Assembly (NCBI GenBank): GCA_011620315.1
Contig: WOZO01000110.1
Span: 1-32,814 of the forward strand
DNA from: Sideroxydans sp.
Lineage (GTDB): Bacteria > Pseudomonadota > Gammaproteobacteria > Burkholderiales > Gallionellaceae
DNA length: 32,814 nucleotides
Reading direction: 5' to 3'
Of this stretch, positions 10,056-13,154 are shown one piece after another (position 1 is the first letter of the stretch; every line of letters begins with the position of its first letter). The notes beneath the pieces were generated by a model. It was not told the DNA's origin, did not search any database, and was given only the letters and a program-made list of their open reading frames with translations. A program made the translations under genes and the position numbers.

Positions 10056-10592
10056 ATGGCAATCAAAGCGACCGTATTCAAAGCCAATCTGCAGATCGCG
10101 GATATGGAGCGACATTATTACCAGGACCACGCGCTCACGCTGGCGCAGCACCCCTCCGAGACCGAAGAAAGACTTATGGTGCGCCTGCTGGCATTCGCCC
10201 TGCATGCGCACGAGCATCTGGAATTCGGACAGGGCATGACCGACGAAGACGCGGCCGACCTGTGGCAGAAAGACCTGACCGGCAGCATCGAACTATGGAT
10301 AGACGTCGGCATTCCCGACGAGAAGCTGATCCGCAAAGCCTGCGGTCGTGCCCTGCAAGTGGTGGTTTATTGCTACGGCGGGCGCGTGGCCGATATGTGG
10401 TTCGCGCAGCACCGCGCGCAGTTCGAGCGCCAGAAGAACCTCGCCATCATCAATCTGCCGCCCGAGAGCACGCGCGAACTGCCCAAGCTGGTGCAGCGCA
10501 CCATGAATCTGCAATGCACCATACAGGATGGTCAGGTGTGGCTGAGCGACGGCGAACACAGCGTGGAGATCGAGCGCATCAAGCTGCGCTGA
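10056..10592 (+). CDS. yaeQ: YaeQ family protein
   Basis: A 178-residue soluble protein matching YaeQ throughout: MAIKATVFKANLQIADMERH at the start, TLAQHPSETEERLMVRLLAF, and the core DLTGSIELWIDVGIPDEKLI and YCYGG. YaeQ has a compact PD-(D/E)XK nuclease-like fold; the cellular role is unresolved, although E. coli YaeQ was once reported as able to suppress loss of RfaH. ATG 10056 follows AGGA at the right spacing. A TATGCT -10-like hexamer lies about 45 bases upstream. It is a single gene, convergent with grxD. Confidence 0.9.
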   Translation: MAIKATVFKANLQIADMERHYYQDHALTLAQHPSETEERLMVRLLAFALHAHEHLEFGQGMTDEDAADLWQKDLTGSIELWIDVGIPDEKLIRKACGRALQVVVYCYGGRVADMWFAQHRAQFERQKNLAIINLPPESTRELPKLVQRTMNLQCTIQDGQVWLSDGEHSVEIERIKLR

Positions 10593-10604
10593 TGCGCGCG
10601 CAGA

Positions 10605-10940
10605 TCAGGCTGTAGCGGTCGCTTTTTCGATCAGCGGTTGCAACTCGCCCTGCTCGAACATGGCCAGCATGATGTCGGAACCGCCGATCAGCTCGCCGTT
10701 GATATAGAGCTGCGGGAAGGTGGGGAAGTCGGCGTAGAACTTCAGGTAGTTCCAGGACACCGGGTCTTCCAGCACGTTGACGGCCACATAGTTGGTCACG
10801 CCCGCCGCCTTCAGCACCTGCGCGGCGCGGCCGGAAAAACCGCATTGCGGGAATTGCGGCGTGCCTTTCATGTACAGCACGACGGGGTTCTCGGTCACCG
10901 TCTTGCGGATGATGTCCAGCGCGATCTCTTTTTCGTCCAT
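10605..10940 (-). CDS. grxD: Grx4-family monothiol glutaredoxin
   Basis: A 111-residue monothiol glutaredoxin that carries and delivers [2Fe-2S] clusters, usually as a homodimer or with BolA. The active site is CGFS with C33 (TPQFPQCGFSGRAAQ). The glutathione-binding elements K25, the cis-proline region FPTFPQLYINGELIGG and SDI are all present. The WNYLKF-type insertion and overall length match E. coli GrxD. The ATG is preceded by AAGGAAA. It is the last gene of the tusE-bolA-grxD unit, 10 bases after bolA. Assignment is firm. Confidence 0.96.
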   Translation of the reverse strand: MDEKEIALDIIRKTVTENPVVLYMKGTPQFPQCGFSGRAAQVLKAAGVTNYVAVNVLEDPVSWNYLKFYADFPTFPQLYINGELIGGSDIMLAMFEQGELQPLIEKATATA

Positions 10941-10950
10941 TGCTATTTCC

Positions 10951-11190
10951 TTATTGGTTGTTGGCCCACTGCGCGGGCGTCATGGTCTTCATCGACAGGG
11001 CGTGAATCTTCTCCATCTTGCCGCCCAGCACCTGATACACCAGCTTGTGCTGTTGCAGCATGCCCTTGCCTTCAAAATCCTTGCTCACGATCACCGCCTC
11101 GAAATGGCGACCGTCGCCTTCGACCTGGATGTGTTCACAGGGCAGGCCCTGCAGGATGAAATCCCTGACGTTATCGGGTGTGACTTTCAT
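10951..11190 (-). CDS. BolA-family protein, IbaG-like
   Basis: A 79-residue BolA protein. The family sequence HFEAVIVSKDFEGKGMLQQH leads to the conserved histidine of IHALSMKTMTPAQW, which serves as a cluster ligand in BolA-glutaredoxin complexes. Short length and sequence are closer to IbaG (YrbA) than to BolA itself. GAGGAA precedes the ATG. Sitting directly upstream of the monothiol glutaredoxin gene, it is the expected partner of Grx4 in a [2Fe-2S] heterodimer used for cluster transfer or iron sensing. Confidence 0.93.
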   Translation of the reverse strand: MKVTPDNVRDFILQGLPCEHIQVEGDGRHFEAVIVSKDFEGKGMLQQHKLVYQVLGGKMEKIHALSMKTMTPAQWANNQ

Positions 11191-11199
11191 TGATATTCC

Positions 11200-11493
11200 T
11201 CAGACGCAGCCGGTCGGCTTGGGCATGCCGCCGTATTTGGTGATCGGCTTCATGGGGCCGGTCATCCACAAGTCGAACACGTCTTTCTGGTCTTCTTCGA
11301 TGTACTTGGCGAATTTGCGGATCGGCGGCACCGAGGTGAATTCCTCGTAATACGCGCGCGCCTTCATGATCTGCTGCCACTTCTTTTCGTTCAGCTCATA
11401 GCCGTCCGCCTCCGCCATGGCACGGCCGATCTCCTCGCTCCAATTGTTCATATCTACAAGATATCCGTCACCGTCACGTTCTGGTAATTGCAT
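11200..11493 (-). CDS. tusE: TusE/DsrC-family sulfur relay protein
   Basis: A 97-residue sulfur carrier. The C-terminal signature GGMPKPTGCV carries the penultimate cysteine (C96) that holds the persulfide. The second cysteine found in dissimilatory DsrC, about ten residues earlier, is absent: the segment reads WMTGPMKPITKYGG. It is therefore TusE-like, a relay for 2-thiouridine synthesis in tRNA, rather than a sulfite-reductase partner. AGGGG lies before the ATG. The partner genes tusBCD are not in the window. It is first in an operon with BolA and Grx4, which links sulfur transfer and Fe-S chemistry, and mnmC elsewhere in the window acts on the same wobble base. Confidence 0.9.
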   Translation of the reverse strand: MQLPERDGDGYLVDMNNWSEEIGRAMAEADGYELNEKKWQQIMKARAYYEEFTSVPPIRKFAKYIEEDQKDVFDLWMTGPMKPITKYGGMPKPTGCV

Positions 11494-11525
11494 GGTCTGC
11501 CCCTCTCTGGTGAAAAAGTGCAGTC

Positions 11526-11554
11526 ATTTAACCCAACCTGAGTAAATTAGTCAA
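11526..11554 (-). promoter_or_regulatory. Sigma70-type promoter of tusE-bolA-grxD
   Basis: On the minus strand, -35 TTGACT (11549-11554) and -10 TTAAAT (11526-11531) are separated by exactly 17 bases. The expected start of transcription is near 11519, giving a short leader of about 26 bases before the tusE ATG at 11493. Confidence 0.7.
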
Positions 11555-11558
11555 TTAC
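11534..11558 (-). promoter_or_regulatory. IscR type-1-like operator over the tusE promoter
   Basis: Read on the minus strand, these 25 bases match 20 of 25 positions of the E. coli IscR type-1 consensus as I recall it (ATASYYGACTRWWWYAGTCRR... ), keeping the full left half TTGACT and most of the right half (ACTC, AGG). It also sits within an inverted repeat GAGTAA-N9-TTACTC (11540-11560). It covers the -35 element, so binding would repress. Whether an Rrf2-type regulator really binds is inference. Confidence 0.5.
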
Positions 11559-11597
11559 TCCTATTGGGGGGATGGAGGCTGATCACCCGCAACGGAA

Positions 11598-13154
11598 TCA
11601 GTGACGGGTCAGTTCCACCAGTTTGGCATCCTCAACGCGGATGTGGTGGATCAACCAGTCGCGCAAATAAGTTAGCACGTCGAACTGGGCGACCAGCGGG
11701 TTGGCATGCAGTTCTTCGTAGAATTCCGCAATCTTCTCTTCAAAGGCATGATGCTGGTGCAATTGGCGATCAATGCCGGAAAATGCGTAGTGAATCATCA
11801 TCTGCTCTTCCGAACGGAAGTGGATCTTGGCATAGGCATCCAATGATTTGATCAGCCGCGCCACTTCACGCGCACCGCGTTTTCGGATCACCACCTGATA
11901 CAGGTCGTTGATCAGATCGAACAGATAACGGTGATGCTCGTCGATGACATCGATCCCCACACTCAGGCTGTCGTCCCAAGGCATCCATTCGTTCTCGCGA
12001 TGACGGATAGGAGGCAGGGTCAGCACTTGTTTGGGGTCGATGATATCGTCGCGGTACAACTCGCGGATGCGCAGGATCTCGGGCATCGAGGCATCGAAGG
12101 CGCGCACCACTTCCGGATCGAAATGCTTGCCCACTTCGCTCATCACCCAGTCATGCGCCTGTTCCACCGTCCAGGGATCCTTGTAGGGACGGGTAGAAGT
12201 GAGCGCATCGAACACGTCGGCCACGGCGCAGATACGCGCCAGCAGGGGTATCTCGTCGCCCTTCATGCCGCCGGGGTAGCCTTTGCCATCCCAGCGTTCG
12301 TGATGACAACCGGCGATATCGCGCGCCGCCTTGATCAGTTCGTCCTTGCCTTCGAGGATGGTGACGCCGATATTGGTGTGCGTCTTCATCACCTCGAATT
12401 CTTCGTCGGTCAGCTTGCCCGGCTTGAGCAGCACCGCATCGGCGATGCCGATCTTGCCCACATCGTGCATGGGTGCCGCGATGTACAGCAGGTCGCGCTG
12501 TTCCTCGGGCAGATGCATGGCCCGGGCAATGGATTGCGCATAGTTGGTCATGCGCATGATGTGCCAGCCGGTCTCGTTGTCGCGGTATTCGGAGGCCACG
12601 CCCAGACTGCGGATAGCATCCGCACGGGCTTCTTCCAGTTCCAGCTCGCGTATGCGCAAGGTCTCCATCGACAAGGTGCGCTGCACAAGACCGGACAGGG
12701 CGCGCGACAGATCGTTGAAGAAATCCTCATAGACCTCGCACAACTCGTATCCCATCGGCACGAACATGGCCACGTAGCCGATGTAACGGCCCTCGACGCG
12801 CAACGGCAGCAGCATGATGCGGGTATGGACGATGCCGCCGGCAGCGGGATCCTCGCAGGAGAACTGTTTTGTATGGCAGCGTTCGACTGCACCGGGTTCG
12901 GGTAGTTTGAGGACCTCCCAATCCAGCGTGTTGTCCCATGCGGGCGGCATGCCGAACTGCGCGACCTGGAAATACTTTCCCCTGGGGTTAAGCAACAGGA
13001 TCGCACCACGTGACTCCACAGGAATATCGCGATATTCTTTCAGCAGAATGAACAGATGCTCCAGCAGGTTGTCCAGGTCGCCTGAATCATTGCCAGACAT
13101 CGTCAACTCAAAGACCAGCTTGCTTATCGCCAGCTTTTCCTGACCGCGTCCCAT
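11598..13154 (-). CDS. HD-GYP c-di-GMP phosphodiesterase with C-terminal hemerythrin domain
   Basis: A 518-residue soluble signalling protein of three parts. Residues ~1-165 resemble a GAF-type sensor, followed by a helical linker. Residues ~180-360 are an HD-GYP phosphodiesterase with the HD pair in MHDVGKIGIAD (H230/D231) and HHERWDGKGYPGG (284-296). Residues ~390-515 are a bacteriohemerythrin: WDDSLSVGIDVIDEHH, then H445/E449 in HFRSEEQMM, then H504 and D509 in HHIRVEDAKL. The third ligand pair is unusual: LHQHHAF replaces the usual HxxxH spacing. It should degrade c-di-GMP in response to O2 or NO bound at a diiron site. It is monocistronic and divergent from the nitroreductase gene. Confidence 0.9.
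   Translation of the reverse strand: MGRGQEKLAISKLVFELTMSGNDSGDLDNLLEHLFILLKEYRDIPVESRGAILLLNPRGKYFQVAQFGMPPAWDNTLDWEVLKLPEPGAVERCHTKQFSCEDPAAGGIVHTRIMLLPLRVEGRYIGYVAMFVPMGYELCEVYEDFFNDLSRALSGLVQRTLSMETLRIRELELEEARADAIRSLGVASEYRDNETGWHIMRMTNYAQSIARAMHLPEEQRDLLYIAAPMHDVGKIGIADAVLLKPGKLTDEEFEVMKTHTNIGVTILEGKDELIKAARDIAGCHHERWDGKGYPGGMKGDEIPLLARICAVADVFDALTSTRPYKDPWTVEQAHDWVMSEVGKHFDPEVVRAFDASMPEILRIRELYRDDIIDPKQVLTLPPIRHRENEWMPWDDSLSVGIDVIDEHHRYLFDLINDLYQVVIRKRGAREVARLIKSLDAYAKIHFRSEEQMMIHYAFSGIDRQLHQHHAFEEKIAEFYEELHANPLVAQFDVLTYLRDWLIHHIRVEDAKLVELTRH

Follow-up and report, generated by a model that had tools for sequence, protein, structure and literature searches.

A three-gene operon encoding a single-cysteine protein of the TusE/DsrC family, a BolA-family protein and a Grx4-type monothiol glutaredoxin is very likely under the control of IscR in Sideroxydans sp. 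The operator is recognized by its sequence and by its conservation among relatives, and from these we infer binding and repression. The operon lies on the minus strand of a 32,814-nucleotide stretch of DNA, referred to below as the window.

Genes of the operon

The first gene (11200..11493, minus strand) encodes a protein of 97 amino acids with the C-terminus KPTGCV, hereafter the carrier. It is followed by the gene of the BolA-family protein (10951..11190, minus strand; 79 amino acids) and that of the glutaredoxin with a CGFS motif (10605..10940, minus strand; 111 amino acids). The three open reading frames are present as a sequence-only reading of this DNA had described them, spaced 9 and 10 bases apart. 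Pfam searches assigned the products to the DsrC (81.9 bits), BolA (63.6 bits) and Glutaredoxin (57.8 bits) families, respectively. The third gene product contains CGFS and passes the Grx4 model TIGR00365 of NCBIfam (130; cut-off 117.1). The second passes the BolA family PF01722 (63.6; cut-off 25.7) and fails the BolA equivalog (37.3; cut-off 137); we take it to be an IbaG-like member of the BolA family. The sequence-only reading had named Grx4 and BolA as established [2Fe-2S] partners. Heterodimers of a CGFS glutaredoxin and a BolA protein, bridged by a [2Fe-2S] cluster, are described in PMC11327457, as is the sensitivity of E. coli grxD mutants to iron chelation. The genes of a CGFS glutaredoxin and a BolA-family protein, as in the known Grx4-BolA/IbaG complex, are adjacent in the window, but here they follow a gene of the DsrC family that has an IscR-type operator. 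Further upstream on the same strand, 104 bases away, a gene at 11598-13154 encodes a protein that joins an HD domain of the c-di-GMP phosphodiesterase-like kind to a bacteriohemerythrin at its C-terminus; such a gene precedes the carrier in 6 of 64 same-family loci, including this one.

Operator and promoter

The putative operator, GTAATTGACTAATTTACTCAGGTTG (11534..11558, minus strand), was scored as matches out of 25 against the IscR type-1 consensus ATASYYGACTRWWWYAGTCRRSTAT as printed in PMC6599224. It matches at 20 positions and spans the -35 box, as had been proposed from the sequence. For comparison, the sites at E. coli iscR reach 24 and 22 on this scale. Conservation in type-1 sites is reported to be among the highest at the three bases of either end (PMC6599224), and the ends in the window, GTA and TTG, are weak.

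The -35 element TTGACT (11549..11554, minus strand) is assigned by its sequence and by column conservation in 53 sites of relatives chosen by score. A spacer of 17 bases separates it from a -10-like element, TTAAAT (11526..11531, minus strand), at whose position these 53 sites have TTnAAT. The sigma70 promoter of the sequence-only reading has this arrangement (TTGACT, 17 bases, TTAAAT), with the caveat that TTAAAT unusually lacks an A at the second position and that a sigma70 scan of 10400-11700 listed no promoter.

Conservation of the operator

Of 120 same-family genomes, 64 have a close orthologue of the carrier gene, which is broken in one of them. Within 130 bases upstream of these 64 loci, a site of at least 20/25 is present in 43 and one of at least 19/25 in 48. 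A scan of named genomes for the carrier returned 415 places, of which the best 80 were taken; among these, the nearest were MAGs labelled Gammaproteobacteria and Sideroxydans, followed by other Gallionellaceae labels. Pooling the 64 family loci with these best 80 of 415 and 20 from an order search gave 164 loci, 113 of them distinct; 150 bases of upstream sequence were available for 111, including our own. Sites of at least 20/25 were found in 69 of the 111 loci and of at least 19/25 in 79, although kinship among the relatives means that locus counts overstate the number of independent events. The operator is thus kept upstream of orthologues, a point that the sequence-only reading had named as a check. 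In 4440 dinucleotide shuffles of the 150-base upstream stretches, the best site reached at least 20/25 in 0.07% and at least 19/25 in 0.63%, and among 340 other genes of the same loci a single one had a site of at least 19/25, which scored 20. The remaining 32 upstream regions fall below 19/25, among them all eight from loci labelled Rhodoferax. In five loci labelled Rhodoferax or Polaromonas (L149, L156, L157, L162 and L177), the carrier gene lies behind a gene for a YeeE/YedE-type sulfur transporter (assigned by Pfam in L149), in some with a thioredoxin-like gene in between, and has no IscR-type site.

TTGACT is the best-conserved part of the 53 score-selected sites, as it would be if the conserved stretch were just a strong core promoter whose -35 element resembled half an IscR site by chance. 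This is very improbable, since the spacer and upstream positions are conserved in these sites too, only one of the 340 other genes has such a match, and the same motif marks iscR.

Gene order around the carrier

The operator stays with the carrier gene while the neighbouring genes differ. The sequence-only reading had proposed to look for conservation of the tusE-bolA-grxD order. In the 64 family loci, bolA-grxD directly follows the carrier in 11, in 10 of which the first gene is intact, and we therefore rejected the three-gene operon as a general arrangement; contig ends cut some of the 64 loci, and a few linkages may be missed in this count. One extra gene separates bolA-grxD from the carrier in G001 and G054, bolA-grxD lies upstream of the carrier in G075 and G003, and in G050 a grx gene is found about 2.2 kb upstream. 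In G093 (L100) the carrier gene is broken and the operator and bolA-grxD are retained; DsrH was not found in that genome. We also rejected an operator at every bolA-grxD, because a site of at least 19/25 is present in 4 of 14 bolA loci with no carrier in the stretch retrieved around them. A recurrent neighbour of 489 amino acids, considered as SufB, proved in one representative to be SelO. In three more distant relatives (L184, L200 and L202), genes for a short protein lacking annotation and for a Bax1-I (YccA-like) protein, as assigned by Pfam in L200, come after that of the carrier.

IscR and specificity of the motif

The draft genome (2.95 Mb in 233 contigs, 94% complete) encodes two Rrf2 proteins. 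One is IscR: its gene adjoins iscS, and it shares C92, C98, C104, H107 and E43 with IscR of E. coli. The other, encoded beside nor-like genes, looks NsrR-like by its translation. The iscR promoter of this genome carries the motif at 22/25. A pattern allowing three mismatches, written after sites of this kind had been seen, matched only the iscR and carrier promoters in the whole draft, and its reversed control had no match there. At the 30 closest iscR loci, a site of at least 20/25 was found within 200 bases in all 30. A second pattern, with one mismatch allowed, gave 52 matches in 34 members of the genus and two with its reversed control. The 52 comprise 33 at iscR, 15 at the carrier, one at bolA-grxD (in G072, which has no carrier) and three others, namely at a cysteine-less DsrC paralogue (G050), an exported-looking protein (G069) and an unnamed ORF (G063). 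This pattern found a site in 15 of the 26 carrier-bearing genomes of the genus and missed that of the window. Because both patterns were built from known sites, their match counts speak for specificity and are not independent discovery. The motif is conserved upstream of orthologues and an IscR is encoded in the genome, so neither of the two outcomes that the sequence-only reading had named as refuting it was observed, and the case for control by IscR is stronger than the sequence alone had allowed.

The presence of two Rrf2 proteins leaves room for another regulator at the site, such as the NsrR-like one. We consider this very unlikely, since the motif is the same as that at the iscR promoter, from which the NsrR motif differs, and an IscR match is found in 119 of 120 family genomes, strong in 116 (E 9e-27 or better) and weak in three (E 8e-7 to 8e-4), with none in one genome. 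The draft of G049, which is 72% complete, contains the carrier with a site of 21/25, and the only Rrf2 match found there is weak (E 8e-4).

Control by IscR, then, gains in likelihood because sites occur in 69 of 111 loci against 0.07% of shuffles and at one of 340 other genes, and because all 30 iscR loci carry the motif. Counted against it are the 32 loci without a 19/25 site, the kinship of the relatives, the second pattern's yield of 15 in 26 carrier-bearing genomes of the genus, the weak site ends, the unusual -10 element and the weak Rrf2 match of G049. The arrangement resembles the known IscR type-1 regulon (isc, nfuA and tpx of P. aeruginosa; iscR of E. coli) in its consensus, its overlap with the -35 element and the IscR ligands, and the isc promoter of this genome carries the same motif as the carrier promoter. 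It differs in its target, since a member of the DsrC family is encoded here together with BolA and Grx4.

Identity of the first protein and its partners

By its sequence, the first protein is a single-cysteine member of the DsrC family and not a true TusE. It belongs to the same superfamily as E. coli TusE and, like it, has a single, penultimate cysteine (C96). However, it is only 35% identical to E. coli TusE, with a gap of seven residues in the alignment, and fails the TusE equivalog model NF008562 by far (53.1; cut-off 191), on which E. coli TusE scores 243.7. It also differs in having an IscR-type operator and in that no TusB beyond DsrH was found in the draft. It passes the model of the TusE/DsrC/DsvC subfamily (TIGR03342; 75.1; cut-off 53.5), and the solved structures nearest to it by sequence are DsrC proteins, 1yx3 first. 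Its Pfam family and the C-terminus KPTGCV connect it to DsrC, but it has a Thr at the position of the second DsrC cysteine, is 33% identical to the genome's own DsrC, and is encoded outside the dsr-type cluster. Between that DsrC and E. coli TusE, the identity is 51%.

The 94% complete draft has a single TusB/DsrH homologue, encoded beside dsrC and two DsrE-family genes, and two further DsrE-family genes elsewhere. DsrH is present in 72 of the 120 family genomes, in one copy each. Both carrier and DsrH occur in 59 genomes, the carrier only in 5, DsrH only in 13 and neither in 43 (Fisher p = 2e-15 over all 120 genomes, a value inflated by shared descent). The corresponding numbers for 86 good genomes are 45, 3, 6 and 32. 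This co-occurrence may reflect just a common sulfur-oxidizing lifestyle and descent.

The sequence-only reading had a TusE-like carrier tie tRNA thiolation to Fe-S status. That link is unsupported, because the protein misses the TusE cut-off by a wide margin, belongs to the DsrC family with its single cysteine and co-occurs with DsrH, the lone TusB/DsrH homologue being encoded beside dsrC. A related explanation is that the carrier is a working TusE which feeds MnmA for the 2-thiouridine of tRNA, with DsrEFH replacing TusBCD and IscR matching thiolation to IscS. E. coli TusE likewise has just the penultimate cysteine and a Thr in place of the other one, which would fit, as would the strong co-occurrence with DsrH and the Bax1-I gene downstream in some distant relatives (tested in L200), given that yccA adjoins tusE in E. 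coli. We nevertheless regard it as unlikely, since the genome's DsrC is closer to E. coli TusE (51% against 35% identity) and the equivalog score is so low.

DsrC receives a persulfide from DsrEFH at its penultimate cysteine, according to PMC3397948. Without a second cysteine, the carrier would hand sulfur to biosynthesis, that is, Fe-S assembly or thiolation, and not to sulfite reductase, a tentative hypothesis. The carrier might instead serve dissimilatory sulfur oxidation as a helper or regulator of DsrC, with IscR coupling the pathway to the Fe-S supply of its enzymes. The DsrH co-occurrence is compatible with this, and dsrAB is reported to be restricted to iron oxidizers among Gallionellaceae (PMC10734462). 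A. vinosum has four extra DsrC-family genes, of which three are reported to go up on pyrite together with iscR and the fourth down (PMC11267869); that report has iscR and DsrC-family genes in one transcriptome and draws no link between them. However, the carrier lacks the second cysteine, which is reported, with few exceptions, only in organisms with DsrAB (PMC3397948), is linked to bolA-grxD in 11 of the 64 loci and is not linked to dsr genes in its own genome. A role in sulfur oxidation thus appears rather doubtful.

Other IscR-type sites

Within 420 bases upstream of a second DsrC paralogue, which has no C-terminal cysteines, sites of at least 18/25 were found in 18 of 23 loci of the genus (3.7% of shuffles) and of at least 20/25 in 10 of 23 (0.13% of shuffles), reaching 23/25; one further locus was too short and was left out of the 23. 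The copy in the genome studied here lies at about 4502-4855 of contig C61 (L333, L005) and has a palindrome of 18/25 upstream. Contig C152 of the same genome bears the two other DsrC copies, whose best sites within 400 bases do not exceed 16/25.

A second gene with such sites encodes an exported-looking protein of about 255 amino acids, which matches no Pfam family above the cut-off. The gene follows that of the carrier in G050, G057, G001 and G054, and also in G003, which belongs to another genus; L040, L048, L055 and L082 are loci with this order. In three genomes (G069, G081 and G107) it stands apart from the carrier and has a 19/25 site 177-311 bases upstream; loci with an IscR-type site and no carrier are L303 (1039-1848), L305 and L306. 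Upstream of the gene in G091 and of two distant copies, no site exceeds 16/25.

Proposed mechanism and significance

In P. aeruginosa, type-1 sites over the -35 element are reported to accompany repression, as at nfuA and tpx, and to require the [2Fe-2S] cluster (PMC6599224). By analogy, [2Fe-2S]-IscR would occupy the 25 bases around the -35 box and keep the operon from being transcribed. When Fe-S clusters are short, IscR without its cluster would release the site and the operon would be expressed, and a shortage of clusters would thereby bring more of the sulfur carrier and of the cluster-trafficking proteins. The carrier, probably a persulfide carrier, would most likely take sulfane sulfur from DsrEFH. 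It is conceivable, if speculative, that IscR of Gallionellaceae governs a class of DsrC-family proteins, the carrier together with the cysteine-less paralogue, and so switches DsrEFH persulfide into Fe-S building under scarcity.

Among the open-access papers surveyed we found no report linking IscR control to tusE/dsrC or bolA-grxD, and the main text of Leyn et al. 2016 (PMC5343134) does not mention IscR. Cells have to divide their sulfur between energy metabolism, the thiolation of tRNA and Fe-S clusters. A conserved IscR-type operator on a DsrC-family carrier would offer a genetic handle on this division in bacteria that use iron and reduced sulfur compounds, and hints at roles for the orphan paralogues of DsrC/TusE in sulfur oxidizers.
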